From a virus, in the IMG/VR virus record IMGVR_UViG_3300031758_000608, positions 1-22,763 of that record: a stretch of DNA of 22,763 bases, one strand, 5' to 3'. A program made the position numbers and the translations under genes. The notes under the pieces are model-generated. The model was not told where the DNA came from. It worked only from the letters and a program-made list of their open reading frames with translations, and searched no databases. Below, piece by piece: positions 1-11,357 of this stretch (position 1 is the first letter of the stretch; each line of letters begins with the position of its first letter).

Positions 1-846
1 TCTGTAAAATACCAAAACTATTTAGCAGAAGAATTAGACAAAGGATTACAATACTCTGAGTACATCGGACAAGGAGCAAATCGCATGATCGAATTTGCTG
101 AATACCTTGGAGAAAACATCAATGCTAACCGCGATTACGCACAGTATATTGCTGAAAGGCTTGATCAAAACATCGGATACTCTGAATACATCGCTGAATC
201 TCTTAACGGAGGAACAGTAGTAGGTGGAAGAAGCGTTCTTGGTGGAGTTGCTGGATTAAACGAGTCTACTTCAATCGATAACCTAATCTCTAAAGTAGAT
301 GCAGTTATCACTGAAGTCAACAGTTCTTCAGCTAAGGCTGTTCTTGAAGGTAAATATCCTTTCTTAAAGGTTATGAGCGAAAACAACAAGAAGTCTTTCC
401 ACGGTCTAGACACAGACAGCAAACAAGCAATCGTTGAAGCTCTTAACGGTTCCCTATGGTTCAATGAGAACGATGTATTAGGAATCATGGAAGCAGTTCT
501 TAATCACAAAAACGAAAACGTTCCTAACTATGTTAGATTCATGCCAGTTGATTACAAGTCACTATGGTCTGAAATGAACGAGAGCGAAAAGAACAGAATC
601 CACGCTAAAGCTCAACTTTACACAGTAAACACTCCTTACCAAGCCAAAGCGTTTTGGGACGAAATGGACCTAAGAGGAGTACAATACAGAATTGAAGAAG
701 GTAAACAACAAAATAAATTGCAACAACTCAACGAAAGCCAAAGTACAGAAGGTATGATGCCTGTTAATCAGGTAGTTGAGATGCAGAGAGGTTACTCTCA
801 TAGTTATCTAGAAAATCTACAGAGATCTGCAGATCTTCGAAAATAA
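1..846 (+). CDS. Scaffold/prohead core-like protein, 5' end outside the window
   Basis: The frame is open from the first base, so the gene starts left of the window; 281 residues are visible, and the first ATG at 85 is probably internal. The first ~71 visible residues are 14-residue repeats of the type Tyr-x-x-Tyr-Ile/Leu-Ala-Glu-x-Leu-Asp/Asn (see repeat entry), which fit two heptads each and so an amphipathic coiled coil. The remaining ~210 residues are acidic/polar and helix-rich, ending near a Gln-rich stretch. The gene lies 28 bases before the major capsid gene, the place of the core scaffold gene 22 in T4. Role as internal scaffold, cut up by the prohead protease, is inferred from position, composition and the Ile/Leu-x-Glu sites; I do not see direct similarity to T4 gp22. 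It could instead be another internal head protein. Confidence 0.6.
   Translation, partial: SVKYQNYLAEELDKGLQYSEYIGQGANRMIEFAEYLGENINANRDYAQYIAERLDQNIGYSEYIAESLNGGTVVGGRSVLGGVAGLNESTSIDNLISKVDAVITEVNSSSAKAVLEGKYPFLKVMSENNKKSFHGLDTDSKQAIVEALNGSLWFNENDVLGIMEAVLNHKNENVPNYVRFMPVDYKSLWSEMNESEKNRIHAKAQLYTVNTPYQAKAFWDEMDLRGVQYRIEEGKQQNKLQQLNESQSTEGMMPVNQVVEMQRGYSHSYLENLQRSADLRK
10..213 (+). repeat. Five tandem 14-codon repeats in the scaffold-like gene
   Basis: Visible residues 4-71 divide into five units of 14: starting at Tyr4, Tyr18, Phe32, Tyr46 and Tyr60 (the last cut to 12). Aligned unit starts are YQNYLAEELD, YSEYIGQGAN, FAEYLGENIN, YAQYIAERLD and YSEYIAESLN. Four of five carry Leu/Ile-x-Glu. 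The DNA copies are diverged at codon level, so selection has kept the protein pattern rather than recent duplication. The array probably continues to the left of the window. Confidence 0.85.
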
Positions 847-874: not shown

Positions 875-2512
875 ATGGCACGTACAAAAATTTTCAGACG
901 TTCAAGCGACAATCGTTTGACAAACACCTGGAAGCCGATTTTGGAAGGATATGGTGCAGACGTTGCAAAGACTCCATGGTTAGCTGAGTATGCTCACAAC
1001 CACGCGATCTTTGATAACGCTACTCCATTGTTCGAACAAACTGCTCCTGGCGTATTTTTACAAACTCCTGGATCTCTTGGTGGATTCATGGGTAACCCAG
1101 TAGCTCCTACAGCTTCTCAAACTCCATTTACTGGTGGTGCAAAGAACTCTTACTCTGACTCTGGTTCAGGTGATAAGTTCCCATCTTTGTTACCAGTAGC
1201 GATTCAAGTTGCTGCTAAAACTATTGGTTTTGACCTAGTTCCTGTAATCCCTATGGATTCTCCAGTTGGATTCCTTCCATACTTGGATTATCTATATGCA
1301 GGTGGTAGAACTGGTGCTGGTGACTTTGATCCTTATTTAGTTAAGATCGAAGGTGCATACGCAGACGATTTCCCTACTGCAACTCCTGGTGATGCAATCA
1401 CAGTGAGTGGTTCTGGTGCTGGTGACTTTACACTTCACTTCGTAGGTTACTCTCGCGTAGACGGTCAATTGATCGCTAAGGTAGTATCAGATGCTGGTAC
1501 AAACACCCTTGCTAATTCAATCGTAGGTAACACAGTTACAATCGGAGGTAACGCTTCAGGTGCTACTACTGGTGTTGCATTAGTTTCTGCTTTAGAAAAC
1601 CATATCTCTGGTTTCACTTCAGTTTCAGATGCTGACTATGCAGGTACTGACTTTAGCGGTTCATACCTTCCTACTACTGGTACTGTTCCTAACGGAATGT
1701 CTCGTGAGGCTGGTGAGAACTCTAAGTTCCGTCAAATGGGTCTAAGAATGTTCACTAAGTTTGTTGAAGCTAGAACTGACCAAGTTTCTATCTCAGCAAC
1801 AGTTGAGCAGATCCAAGACTTGAACAGAGTATGGAACTACGACGTTATCTCTATGTTAGAGAACGTTGCAGTAAACGATCTTGCTCAATCTATCAACAAG
1901 CAACTTGTTGACCGTGTATTCCAAATGGCTGATGTTCACAATGCTGAGATCGACCTAGTTGAAGGTGCTGGAATCACAACTCTTGACCTTTCTACAGGTA
2001 CAGGAGGTTTCGAAAACGTTTCTACATTGCAACGTAGATTAGTTACTAAAGTTCTTGAACTTGCTAACTTGATCTACCACAGAGGACGTTTCGGAGCTGG
2101 TACTTTCATGGTAACTAACGGACGCCTTGCTTCTGCATTGGCTGATGTTGCTGGTTACTCAATCGCACAAGTTCCAACTGATATGACTGGTGTTGCTGGA
2201 AACCTTTACCCTGCTGGTAAAGTTTACGGTGTACAAGTTTATGTTGACCCTAACTTATCTTGGGGAGATACTAGACTTGCTATCGGTCGTAAAGGTGCTG
2301 ACGAAGAGCCTGGAGTTAAATTCATGCCGTACATCATGGCTGAATCTCTTCAGACTATCGCAGAGGGTACATTCTCTCCAAAAATCGGTATGAAATCTCG
2401 TTACGCGATTACTGAAGCTGGATGGCACCCTGAAACACAGTATGTTAACATGGATATCCAAGGTGATATCGCAGTTCTTACTGGTGGTGTTGCACCTGCA
2501 AACTTTAGCTAG
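875..2512 (+). CDS. 23: Major capsid protein, T4 gp23-like
   Basis: 545 residues, close to T4 gp23 (521). It forms the hexamers of the head shell. The N-terminus is basic (residues 1-20) and followed by a Trp-Leu-Ala-Glu stretch at 35-38 that matches the Leu/Ile-x-Glu site cut by T4-type prohead proteases; a second candidate is Ile-Leu-Glu at 22-24. Residues ~165-245 are rich in Gly, Thr, Ser and Val and look like an inserted beta domain. The C-terminal third, with the Glu-Ala-Gly-Trp-His and Gln-Tyr-Val-Asn stretches near the end, is typical of the gp23 family. The start has no clear Shine-Dalgarno but a long A-rich leader, and a strong terminator follows 20 bases after the stop, so it ends its transcription unit. 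Codons look well optimised, as expected of a very abundant protein. Confidence 0.93.
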   Translation: MARTKIFRRSSDNRLTNTWKPILEGYGADVAKTPWLAEYAHNHAIFDNATPLFEQTAPGVFLQTPGSLGGFMGNPVAPTASQTPFTGGAKNSYSDSGSGDKFPSLLPVAIQVAAKTIGFDLVPVIPMDSPVGFLPYLDYLYAGGRTGAGDFDPYLVKIEGAYADDFPTATPGDAITVSGSGAGDFTLHFVGYSRVDGQLIAKVVSDAGTNTLANSIVGNTVTIGGNASGATTGVALVSALENHISGFTSVSDADYAGTDFSGSYLPTTGTVPNGMSREAGENSKFRQMGLRMFTKFVEARTDQVSISATVEQIQDLNRVWNYDVISMLENVAVNDLAQSINKQLVDRVFQMADVHNAEIDLVEGAGITTLDLSTGTGGFENVSTLQRRLVTKVLELANLIYHRGRFGAGTFMVTNGRLASALADVAGYSIAQVPTDMTGVAGNLYPAGKVYGVQVYVDPNLSWGDTRLAIGRKGADEEPGVKFMPYIMAESLQTIAEGTFSPKIGMKSRYAITEAGWHPETQYVNMDIQGDIAVLTGGVAPANFS

Positions 2513-3147: not shown

Positions 3148-4137
3148 TCAATCTTTAGAACTAAAGCCTATCGTTTTTTCGTTAGGCTTTTTTATTTTAG
3201 GTTTGACCTTCATGCCTTCAAGCAAGGCAATCGCCTCATCGAACGTCTTATCTAATAGGAATACTGATATGACTAGTTCTTTTAGGTGGGATAGGGACAT
3301 GTCCTCTGTTCTCTTTATCCAACGAACCACGTCTATATCTTCTATCTTTTTTCCTAGTTTTGCTCTTAGGTATGCCTCCCTGATCTCAGAATTAGGCATG
3401 TCAACCTGATATCTACGGTCAAATCTAGACGGACGATTAGAGATACGTTCTTCTAGTTTTTCTGGATAATTGGTCGTAGCGATGTAGACAACGTTTTCTA
3501 TCTGCTTAACTCCGTCTAAAATATTTAGCAATTGGCTGGTTGCATACTTGCCTTCTCCGGCAATTGCTTCCAAGTCTTCAAGGATTACTACGATCGGCCT
3601 AGTCGGCTCGATGCTTCTAAACAAGGGCATGAAATCGATAAAGTAATCTACTGAATCTTCGTCCTTGATGTTTATCACAAGTCCTCCAAGCTGAATGATT
3701 TGCTTAACGCAGAGCTGTATGATTCCAGACTTACCGCAACCCGGCTCGCCATATAGAAGAATACCTCTCTTGTGAACGAACTTATAATTGCTATAGAGTT
3801 CTTTGCTTTCCCAAAATCGGTTGATGTCAGAAAGGATCTCTTGGATCTCAGCAGAAGGTAACTCATACAGTTCATCGGTCTTAAATGGAAGACGTTTTAA
3901 GATGACTTGATTTACGTCCCTATTGTAGACAGGTTCGTATAGGCCTGAAGGAACTGATGCTATCGTTGCGTGGGCAGGACAATATTCACCGTCAGACAAG
4001 GGTCTCCAACAGGAAACCTTTTTTGTATCATCAACTTCGTTTGGTTTTGAAGCATTCCCTTCAAGCATGATGTCTAAGTTACTTAGTTCTTCGGCTATAT
4101 CGATTCGTGTTTTAATCGCTTTATTTTTTCCCATCAT
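3148..4137 (-). CDS. AAA+ ATPase
   Basis: 329 residues. The AAA module spans about 120-270: Walker A GEPGCGKS at 130-137, Walker B Ile-Val-Val-Ile-Leu-Glu-Asp around 182-188, sensor Thr-Thr-Asn at 221-223 and an arginine-finger stretch with Arg238, Arg241 and Arg242 (Pro-Ser-Arg-Phe-Asp-Arg-Arg). This is the FtsH/BCS1/proteasome-ATPase branch, which unfolds or remodels proteins. There is no protease or membrane segment. The N-terminal ~110 residues are not recognised and hold two Cys (43, 53) in a Cys-Trp-Arg-Pro...Tyr-Cys-Pro context. Last gene of the leftward operon, joined to the previous gene by an ATGA overlap; two in-frame ATGs (4137, 4134) compete as start. Substrate unknown; it could be a chaperone in head assembly or host remodelling. 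Confidence 0.88.
   Translation of the reverse strand: MMGKNKAIKTRIDIAEELSNLDIMLEGNASKPNEVDDTKKVSCWRPLSDGEYCPAHATIASVPSGLYEPVYNRDVNQVILKRLPFKTDELYELPSAEIQEILSDINRFWESKELYSNYKFVHKRGILLYGEPGCGKSGIIQLCVKQIIQLGGLVINIKDEDSVDYFIDFMPLFRSIEPTRPIVVILEDLEAIAGEGKYATSQLLNILDGVKQIENVVYIATTNYPEKLEERISNRPSRFDRRYQVDMPNSEIREAYLRAKLGKKIEDIDVVRWIKRTEDMSLSHLKELVISVFLLDKTFDEAIALLEGMKVKPKIKKPNEKTIGFSSKD
3163..3195 (+). terminator. Rightward terminator inside the end of the opposing AAA gene
   Basis: AAAGCCTA at 3163-3170 pairs with TAGGCTTT at 3183-3190; two more G-C pairs form inside around a T6 loop, and TTTTTATTTT follows. It ends the plus-strand transcript of the Dps-like gene. Read on the minus strand there is no T-run after the stem, so it should act mainly rightward. 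It lies within the last codons of the AAA gene. Confidence 0.75.
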
Positions 4138-4465: not shown

Positions 4466-5824
4466 TTAAAAAGTTTTATTCAAGGCCTTTTTTAGCTCTA
4501 AAAGATCACTTTTATACATTTGAATGGGCTCAATGCTTCTAATTTTCTCTAACTCTGCTTCCTTACCTTCTAACTGGTTTAGCAACTCTTGAAACTTTTC
4601 TAGAGTCAAGGTATGGATTGCCATGTTTAGTAAGTAATTGTAAGAACCATCTACTTGATCAAAATCAGCAGTCTCTAAGTAAAGTATGATTTGACTCTTA
4701 GGAACGTTGTTTACCACTAGTTCCCCATCGATTATTGCCTTAATGAAACGTGCTCTATTTGATAACACCAAGAGTTCTGACTCTAGCTTGTTTATTATGT
4801 GAGCCTTTCTTTTTGAGTAATAGCTCAATCTAAAGTCAACGAAATACTCGATTATCTCTTTGGCTGTGGTAAATATCTTAAGTTGGCCGTTTTCATCAAG
4901 AACGGTAAAGTTTTCAGTCTGTTTTTCTTCCATCTTTAGAAGTCGTTCTAGCTTGACTGAATCTTTGATGGTCTTTAGGTCTTCCCTTCTAAACTTTATG
5001 GTGTAGTTGATGTTAGACTTACAGTTGTTTTCGTATGCTGCAATGCTGCGTTTTTCCTCAATGTTGATCAGATGCTGGTCAAACTTCTCATAAGTGACGG
5101 ATGGAGGTAATTCAGAAACAGCAACAGTTGATGTGTTTTTTATCTCATACTTACCTCTAAATATCCAAGAAAGGTGAGAGTCTGGTGATTGGATACACTC
5201 TCCATTAAATTCTAGATACCATGGAGAAGGGTCTTCAAACCTTTTACCCTCAAGCTTCTTTAGACAAGCATCAATTAGGTTGATTGGGTTTCGGTTTAGG
5301 ATGTTTGTCGCAAAGCCTACAGCGATTCCACTTCCTCCGTTTAGGAGAACAGTTGGAATTATGGGTAAGAAGAACATGGGTTCTATTTCATTACCTTCCT
5401 CGTGTCTAGACTCTAACAGTTCAAAGTCCTTGTAAAGCAGTCTAAAGTTGGGATGTAGCTTGGTGGATATGTATCGAGGAGCACCTGCTTCTGGAGAACG
5501 TAAGGAACCGAACTGTCCTATTGAATCTAACACAGGCATTGAATTTTTAAACTTTTGTGCCATAGTAATTATAGCGCCGTTTAGAGATCCGTCACCGTGA
5601 TGATAGTGAGCATCTGAGGCAACCTTTCCTGCGAGTTGGAATATCTTCAATGGCTTCTCATTTCCAGTCCTCCAGACCCTATTTGCGACGAATATTATCT
5701 TTCTTTGAGTAGGCTTAAAGCCGTCTATCACTGAAGGGATTGCTCTTTCTTCAACGACGTATTTTGCGTATTCTTTATAGTCAGTATCTAAGTATTGAGT
5801 TATAGTCTTTACTTCTGGTCGCAT
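4466..5824 (-). CDS. 52: T4-type DNA topoisomerase II, medium subunit (gp52, GyrA-like)
   Basis: 452 residues, near T4 gp52 (about 440). It is the DNA breakage-reunion subunit of type IIA topoisomerase. The catalytic tyrosine is Tyr118 in Gly-Ala-Pro-Arg-Tyr-Ile-Ser-Thr, with the usual Arg before it; the winged-helix region includes Asp-Gly-Phe-Lys-Pro-Thr-Gln-Arg at 34-41 and Ala-His-Tyr-His-His-Gly-Asp-Gly at 72-79. The Gly-Ser-Gly-Ile-Ala-Val-Gly-Phe-Ala-Thr-Asn stretch is the conserved tower entry. There is no GyrA C-terminal beta-pinwheel, so it should relax rather than supercoil DNA, as in T4. It works with the large subunit at 6286-8157; both lie in the same operon, separated by two small genes. 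Confidence 0.95.
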   Translation of the reverse strand: MRPEVKTITQYLDTDYKEYAKYVVEERAIPSVIDGFKPTQRKIIFVANRVWRTGNEKPLKIFQLAGKVASDAHYHHGDGSLNGAIITMAQKFKNSMPVLDSIGQFGSLRSPEAGAPRYISTKLHPNFRLLYKDFELLESRHEEGNEIEPMFFLPIIPTVLLNGGSGIAVGFATNILNRNPINLIDACLKKLEGKRFEDPSPWYLEFNGECIQSPDSHLSWIFRGKYEIKNTSTVAVSELPPSVTYEKFDQHLINIEEKRSIAAYENNCKSNINYTIKFRREDLKTIKDSVKLERLLKMEEKQTENFTVLDENGQLKIFTTAKEIIEYFVDFRLSYYSKRKAHIINKLESELLVLSNRARFIKAIIDGELVVNNVPKSQIILYLETADFDQVDGSYNYLLNMAIHTLTLEKFQELLNQLEGKEAELEKIRSIEPIQMYKSDLLELKKALNKTF

Positions 5825-10854: not shown

Positions 10855-11082
10855 ATGGCAAATCCAGTTATGAATTACAATCAGTTCATGGCAGCTTTCA
10901 AAAGAGCAGAGTCTGGTTATAGAGGTAAAGCTAACGTTGCAGCTCATGACAAAAACGGTTCTGCAAAACTTAATCAAGGTTTAGTTGAAGGTCCTGTAAA
11001 AGGAAAAGGTACTCCTCACATCGATAAGTACACTAAATCTTACATGGCAACTGCTAAGAAGAAGAATATCGTAGGTAAATAA
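10855..11082 (+). CDS. Unknown small basic protein, first of the second late cluster
   Basis: 75 residues, basic, rich in Lys, Gly, Ala and Asn, with no membrane segment. It begins Met-Ala-Asn-Pro-Val-Met-Asn-Tyr-Asn-Gln-Phe, and the rest has the low-order look of a DNA-binding or internal head protein (Lys-Gly-Lys-Gly, Thr-Ala-Lys-Lys-Lys). The late-type promoter 26 bases before the start suggests high late expression. An internal head or small virion protein is the best guess; no family is recognised. Confidence 0.75.
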   Translation: MANPVMNYNQFMAAFKRAESGYRGKANVAAHDKNGSAKLNQGLVEGPVKGKGTPHIDKYTKSYMATAKKKNIVGK

Positions 11083-11093
11083 TTTAACCTTAA

Positions 11094-11357
11094 ATGAAAA
11101 GAGCAATCGAAAGATTTGAACAATACGCTCTATTTGAAAAGAAGGGCGATCTCAAAAAGCTAGTCGGAAAAGACGAAGACGAAGAGTTGACGGTGAACGA
11201 CGCCAAGCGATTGGGTGTTAAGATTGCTAACATGGATGGTGAAGACAAGAAAAAATACGTCGGAATCATTAACTTCTTAGGAGCTTCGTGTAACATCTAT
11301 AACGAGATCTGGAAGAATTATAGAAGAACCCGAGACAGAAAAGAACGAAATGCATAA
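11094..11357 (+). CDS. Unknown small charged protein
   Basis: 87 residues, highly charged and helical. The N-terminus Met-Lys-Arg-Ala-Ile-Glu-Arg-Phe-Glu-Gln-Tyr-Ala-Leu-Phe-Glu is followed by a Lys/Asp/Glu-rich middle (Lys-Asp-Glu-Asp-Glu-Glu) and a basic C-terminus. It follows the 75-residue gene by 11 bases and overlaps the next gene by 8 bases. No family is recognised. Its N-terminal Leu-Phe-Glu at 13-15 matches the prohead protease pattern, which would fit a head protein, but that is weak evidence. Confidence 0.75.
   Translation: MKRAIERFEQYALFEKKGDLKKLVGKDEDEELTVNDAKRLGVKIANMDGEDKKKYVGIINFLGASCNIYNEIWKNYRRTRDRKERNA

Follow-up and report, generated by a model that had tools for sequence, protein, structure and literature searches.

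Genes and repeat units at the locus

The window, a 22,763-bp IMG/VR fragment (IMGVR_UViG_3300031758_000608), opens inside a gene whose product carries five 14-residue units placed head-to-tail (positions 10–219 within ORF 1–846; Table 1). As the original prediction had it, these tandem units lie just upstream of a gp23-type capsid gene, are spaced by exactly 14 residues and bear four Ile/Leu-x-Glu sites: [IL]xE occupies unit positions 5–7 in four of the five (LAE, LGE, IAE, IAE), the odd one out being unit 8, whose IGQ is replaced by IAE or VAE in several relatives. When the ORF, or only the array, was shuffled 20,000 times, no run of [YF]xx[YH][ILV] motifs at this spacing exceeded two, against five observed. 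These shuffles, together with conservation across 41 non-redundant arrays, rule out a chance or low-complexity repeat.

The full gene, which the prediction advised obtaining so that the repeats could be counted, is present at 5086–7074 of contig L010 (IMGVR_UViG_3300031857_024670), a sequence 100% identical to the window over their overlap. It starts with TTG and encodes 662 aa with 11 units, of which the window holds numbers 7–11. Comparison of arrays showed the half-unit insert TLNNSVK to be specific to the window's clade.

Table 1. Features of the capsid-gene region, with coordinates in the window
Feature	Position	Strand	Remarks
Protease–scaffold fusion gene, 3′ part	1–846	+	Codons 382–662 of 662; 5′ end open; by comparison with the identical contig L010
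Protease domain and units 1–6	Left of window end		Present in L010
SVK, end of the 7-residue half-unit insert TLNNSVK between units 6 and 7	1–9	+	
Unit 7, YQNYLAEELDKGLQ	10–51	+	LAE at 22–30
Unit 8, YSEYIGQGANRMIE	52–93	+	IGQ, without [IL]xE
Unit 9, FAEYLGENINANRD	94–135	+	LGE at 106–114
Unit 10, YAQYIAERLDQNIG	136–177	+	IAE at 148–156
Unit 11 (last), YSEYIAESLNGGTV	178–219	+	IAE at 190–198; 3′ half degenerate
Predicted C-terminal helical domain	274–843	+	Homologous to PTm1 and pT24 protease–scaffold C-termini
gp23-type major capsid protein	875–2512	+	Pfam Gp23, 4e-34
LFE in gp23 homologue, putative propeptide cleavage site	1028–1036	+	Analogy with T4 gp23 propeptide end

The fusion gene directly precedes gp23, so its scaffold part sits between the gp21 domain and gp23, the gene position of T4 gp22. 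Aligned gp23 homologues share an [ILMVF]xE (LNE, INE, LFE or similar) about 45–55 residues in, within the propeptide and in the part that corresponds to the T4 gp23 cleavage region; the propeptide of T4 gp23 measures 65 residues (PMC9026906). We expect the gp23 homologue to be the main substrate of the fusion protease.

Several neighbours deserve mention in their own right. Directly upstream of the fusion gene, the window's clade has a DnaJ-like co-chaperone gene (L010:4056–5033; Pfam DnaJ), and in LR745206, at about 461 kb (L041), a DnaJ-like gene adjoins a small ORF of three scaffold-like units. A few genes downstream of gp23, a 590-aa protein (L011:9949–11721) is built of SGGxxNTASGxxSTVSGG repeats along nearly its whole length. 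In the window, the capsid gene is closely followed, on the opposite strand, by an AAA+ ATPase-type gene (3148–4137, minus strand); BCS1-type ATPases have been linked to head assembly in a jumbo-phage survey (PMC7824862).

A gp21-type protease fused to a predicted helical scaffold

The gp21-type protease that was to be sought upstream turned up in the same polypeptide as the array. Sequence and model agree that the N-terminal domain of the fusion protein is a prohead protease of this type (Peptidase S77/U9): residues about 23–158 match Pfam Peptidase_S77 (1.1e-10), the fusion protein matches the head maturation protease family phrog_207 (2.9e-36), and a PDB sequence profile search links the protease to T4 gp21 (3.5e-6). 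For the predicted fold (AlphaFold2), the best PDB matches were the T4 gp21 chains of 5jbl (Foldseek E 1.3e-9, TM 0.75 on the target), followed by herpesvirus assemblins. Catalytic H78, S133 and D155 are invariant among 28 relatives, and H78 and S133, the latter being the initial Ser of SSR, fall opposite the two residues that the 5jbl construct carries as Ala. T4 gp21 cleaves after L/I-x-E (PMC9026906), a specificity presumed for the fusion protease, with which the [ILMVF]xE of gp23 propeptides in relatives and the Glu-only position 7 of the units (see below) agree. Another huge phage (L082; LR756508:156000–162000) encodes a gp21-type protease with a long insertion directly after GELDHPD, the flanks of which resemble an intein (CLKKHSAQALTVDGF...TGNS).

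The array spans residues 294–454 of the complete protein. It is predicted to form a near-continuous helix (289–450), broken only at the 7-residue insert; its pLDDT of 40–50 is low, as expected for an array modelled without partners, and confidence in the full-length, single-chain model is low except for the protease and the C-terminal domain. The C-terminal 190 residues are predicted as a helical domain and match the C-termini of the protease–scaffold proteins of Tenacibaculum phages PTm1 and pT24 (97.5%). Aligned with seven gp22 proteins (hhalign), this domain showed no detectable similarity to T4 gp22 (probability 0.25%), and its reading as a gp22 homologue was rejected.

Could the scaffold also be made without the protease? 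Met245 (L010:5818–5820), just before a conserved VT, is invariant in 28 relatives; the stretch preceding it is A-rich (63% A), like the start context of gp23, with an excess of A-ending synonymous codons (z 4.7). An invariant Met behind an A-rich stretch makes a second start, yielding a protease-free scaffold product, plausible as an inference from sequence. Lambda C/Nu3 is a precedent. T4 gene 21 also has an internal start (PMC9026906).

Distribution of the array

A profile search recovered at least 478 relatives in IMG/VR, of which 80 were kept. The corresponding search of bacterial genome assemblies gave three, all in Bacteroidota metagenome bins, one being a Psychroflexus MAG; the hosts of array phages are probably Bacteroidota. 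Arrays are present in LR745206 (634,780 bp), LR756504 (636,363), LR756502 (642,428) and LR756501/503 (735,411), lengths that coincide with the four largest complete genomes in the huge-phage survey by Al-Shayeb et al. 2020 (634, 636, 642 and 735 kb; PMC7162821). Among the 41 non-redundant arrays, the number of units ranges from 8 to 15, mostly 11–15 and rarely 8–10. It does not scale with genome size: contigs of 207–253 kb have 11 units and those of 435–735 kb have 11–13. A role of array length as a ruler of capsid size was rejected on this ground.

Each unit resembles the T4 capsid-targeting sequence

What is conserved within a unit? Reduction of 92 arrays to the 41 non-redundant ones left 419 inner units, in which information content is highest at Tyr4 (3.83 bits), Tyr1 (3.76) and Glu7 (3.56), followed by Ala6 (3.09), Ile13 (3.04) and L/I/V5 (2.91); positions 2, 3, 8, 10, 11 and 14, which are polar, carry 1.0–2.4 bits. 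Tyr accounts for 91% of residues at positions 1 and 4 alike, the remainder being almost all Phe or His, and Glu for 90% at position 7. The motif [ILVM]xE stands at positions 5–7 in 377 of the 419 units, and [IL]xE is denser in the arrays (5.8 per 100 residues) than in shuffled arrays (2.2) or the rest of the protein (3.0). No unit contains proline. Insertions within arrays measure 7, 14 or 28 residues, so that the helical register is kept; all other gaps reflect hits outside the array.

These positions can be compared with the capsid-targeting sequence (CTS) of T4 IPIII, MKTYQEFIAE, for which suppressor mutagenesis assigned targeting mainly to residues 4 and 7 and processing to residues 8 and 10; Asp at residue 10 allows targeting and inhibits processing (PMC9026906). 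Unit positions 1, 4, 5 and 7 correspond exactly to CTS residues 4, 7, 8 and 10. The aromatics on which CTS targeting depends are found at unit positions 1 and 4, and the residues that permit processing (Ile8 and Glu10, with no Asp) have their counterparts at positions 5–7. On this alignment, Glu7 is the putative P1 residue of a protease site.

Alternatively, the array might be nothing but a coiled-coil rod, in which helix packing and salt bridges hold Tyr, Ile and Glu constant, [ILV]xE is coincidental and the fusion serves to keep protease and core together. A repeat length of 14, or twice seven, and inserts of seven residues suit such a register, as does the near-continuous predicted helix, and Tyr1, Tyr4 and Ile13 are conserved about as well as Glu7. 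The two readings part over aspartate: a protease site excludes Asp at position 7, whereas a coiled coil alone tolerates it. At position 7 the Glu:Asp ratio is 377:0, while positions 3 (222:75; p 5e-30 for the comparison with position 7) and 10 (46:196) accept both acids. Units were located with a PSSM that had itself been trained on similar ones, at a threshold of 8 bits; as units mostly score 20–39 bits, far above it, a single Asp would not hide a unit. Moreover, the preference for Glu over Asp recurs outside any rod, at the last position of the N-terminal tags described below (53:3, 26:4, 22:1 and 7:0 in the four array phages), and scaffolds of this kind are normally destroyed before packaging (PMC9026906). 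We therefore regard a mere rod as unlikely.

Single N-terminal copies of the motif in array phages

Single copies at protein N-termini are a line of evidence independent of the array. The pattern [YFW]xx[YFH][ILVM]xE was sought in residues 3–11 of the called ORFs of nine phages, four with the array and five for comparison; as a null, residues 2–20 were shuffled within each gene, and the reversed motif and internal positions served as further controls. In the 735-kb phage, 54 of 964 genes carry the tag; shuffling gave a mean of 2.55 and at most 8 in 1,000 rounds, and the reversed motif gave 2. The 635-kb phage has the tag on 26 of 895 (shuffled mean 2.1), the first 400 kb of a 435-kb contig on 22 of 544 (1.0) and a 207-kb relative of the window on 7 of 237 (0.44). 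In T4, two of 247 genes match, and these are exactly IPII and IPIII. Counts were at background in phage G (2), phiKZ (0), S-PM2 (1) and PTm1 (2). Shuffling, reverse-motif and internal-position controls together rule out that the enrichment is an artefact of N-terminal composition.

With the tag removed, the 109 tagged proteins fall into 89 clusters, their bodies mostly unrelated, which marks the tag as a transplantable signal. Among these bodies are PPK2, RimK-like ATP-grasp, NUDIX, RNA ligase, methyltransferase, exonuclease and endolysin-type domains as well as many unknowns; primase and exonuclease homologues occur among the tagged genes. Few tagged orthologues are common to different genomes, so direct evidence from conservation is slight for the tag. 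The consensus of array and tag differs at position 4 (Tyr in the array, mostly Phe in the tag) and at position 6 (Ala as against Asn/Lys).

An unbiased scan for gapped triples in residues 2–16 ranked [ILVM]xx[YFW]xx[YFW] first in each of the four array phages. This looser form marks 8–15% of genes, versus 2–4% after shuffling, with 13–15% in three huge phages; in the control phages G, phiKZ, T4, S-PM2 and PTm1 it was at background. Genomes with the loose pattern, which is wider than the cleavable tag, include LR756501, LR745206, IMGVR_UViG_3300032236_001850 and L058–L068. The class may comprise uncleaved tags or another signal, and we do not claim all of its members as head cargo.

Within the window, no complete gene has the strict tag; two ORFs come near it, at 10855–11082 (MANPVMNYNQFMAAF) and 11094–11357 (MKRAIERFEQYALFE). 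Elsewhere, two small huge-phage proteins have the unit itself at or near their start: one at 716,346 of LR756501 (MSAYDEYLREEMNKTRAYSEYVAS), with tag and second unit 14 residues apart, and one at about 460.4 kb of LR745206, with three units from an internal MNYEDYIAES. A third protein, at about 620 kb of LR756501, bears three units near its C-terminus. A DPYGEE[DN]W motif recurs among several small proteins of LR756501 (L170, L180, L069 and others), some of them also N-terminally tagged. The 462-kb LR756500 (L074–L076) shows highly uniform MKYIxEYEEF[IL]LE-type N-termini on 15 of 72 genes in three stretches, two of them picked for motif hits, although Glu has been lost from several units of its own array.

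The tag could instead mark a target other than the head, for example an intracellular compartment made by the phage, its likeness to the units being convergent. That the loose pattern covers 13–15% of genes in three huge phages, nucleic-acid enzymes included, speaks in favour of this. However, the same strict pattern retrieves from T4 precisely the known CTS proteins, the Glu of the protease site is part of the enriched motif, and phiKZ, which builds a nucleus-like compartment, lacks the tag. A non-head destination thus appears distinctly unlikely.

Discussion

What is the function of the repeats? We consider it probable, with some reserve, that they form the core-building middle of a prohead protease–scaffold fusion found in T4-type (gp23) huge and jumbo phages, and that units and tags alike are cut after [ILV]xE in the head. 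Sequence itself shows the fusion, the array with its register and conservation, the missing Asp at position 7 and the enrichment of tags; helix and protease fold are predicted. Packing of the core, recruitment of cargo, cleavage and release of peptides before DNA packaging are the steps that we infer. Each chain joins its gp21-type serine protease to a long predicted helix of 14-residue units, followed by a C-terminal domain likewise predicted to be helical. Within each unit, the aromatics at positions 1 and 4 would serve targeting and packing, and [ILV]-x-Glu at positions 5–7 would be the protease site. Array helices would pack into the prohead core, and cargo with one N-terminal copy of the closely similar tag would join the same core by resembling a unit. 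After closure of the shell, the protease would cut behind [ILV]xE in the gp23 propeptide, the cargo tags and every unit, and the core would dissolve into roughly 14-mers, leaving space for DNA.

More tentatively—possible, but short of an even chance—the cargo tag mimics one scaffold unit: the largest known phages would build the prohead core from a poly-CTS scaffold that shares its chain with the protease, 25 to more than 100 different proteins would be drawn into the head by the single scaffold-like unit at their N-terminus, and the same protease would later remove this tag. Against the model of a cleaved core with tagged cargo stand the mismatch of array and tag consensus at positions 4 and 6, and the array of the huge phage L015, in which several units have lost their Glu, yet whose genome has clear tags. 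The breadth of the tag, with its loose form on 8–15% of genes and homologues of primase and exonuclease among the tagged, also implies an uncomfortably large cargo for a signal meant for the head alone. An array of receptors, whose units stay uncut and each dock one tagged cargo protein to set its copy number, would be favoured by the likeness of unit and tag (expected for self-association of like helices) and by the 11–15 units kept in most lineages, but is very unlikely, given that it leaves [ILV]xE and the absence of Asp in the units unexplained and that unit number is unrelated to genome size.

The original prediction read the repeats as a possible multivalent core scaffold carrying T4-like targeting and cleavage signals. 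In large part it is supported; two points need correction. Protease and head-gene context are indeed present, but as a protease–scaffold fusion rather than a separate scaffold. And while the conserved positions match the CTS residues for targeting and processing, the array is internal and therefore not a CTS in the sense of an N-terminal tag.

How does this arrangement relate to known systems? T4 gp21 (Peptidase S77/U9, 5jbl) is alike in fold, in His/Ser/Asp, in its place next to gp23 and in the presumed L/I-x-E specificity, but is a separate protein of 212 aa, whereas here the protease is joined to scaffold sequence and fills the N-terminal third of the 662 aa. In T4 and the T4-like phages compared (S-PM2, R11Z, Ac42, ACP17 and Mendera), protease and scaffold each have a gene of their own. 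T4 gp22 shares the position between the gp21 domain and gp23, the helical character and many [IL]xE sites, but shows no sequence similarity by hhalign and lacks the 14-residue array. The T4 CTS (IPII, IPIII) has the same aromatic-x-x-aromatic-aliphatic-x-Glu, in T4 as a single copy at the N-terminus of cargo, here as 11–15 tandem copies inside the protease–scaffold; the huge phages, unlike T4, have dozens of single N-terminal copies besides the array. Similar in architecture are PTm1 (ORF-300) and pT24 (BPT24_140), annotated as 'prohead core scaffold(ing) protein and protease', in which a fused protease and scaffold with a homologous C-terminus likewise stands directly before the capsid gene; these fusions lack the array, and PTm1 lacks tag enrichment. 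In phiKZ (gp175) and SPN3US (gp245), a distant gp21-type protease cuts many propeptide-bearing head proteins after x-x-Glu, but with A/S/G-x-E specificity, long propeptides and no confirmed gp22 counterpart (PMC5694885); our analysis found neither array nor tag in phiKZ.

Parts of this picture were already known. Fusions of protease and scaffold are on record for PTm1 and pT24, and the gene family itself has been deposited, as the 70% identity of the C-terminal domain to that of UniProt A0A6J5PWK8 (uncultured phage, 657 aa) attests; this entry takes its name, 'Peptidase U9, T4 prohead protease', solely from the protease domain, and we found no description of the array. Searches of the open-access literature brought up no account of either the array or the tag enrichment, the CTS papers found there being concerned with T4, P1 and SPN3US.

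These results bear on how CTS-tagged proteins enter the core of T4 and on what scaffolds the heads of giant phages. If a scaffold can consist of tandem, CTS-like and cleavable units, this suggests that the tag would work by imitating the scaffold. Were this true, the proteins injected by the largest known phages, among them many of unknown function, could be listed from genome sequence and the list put to the test; the tag on dozens of their proteins may reveal how these phages load proteins into their heads.
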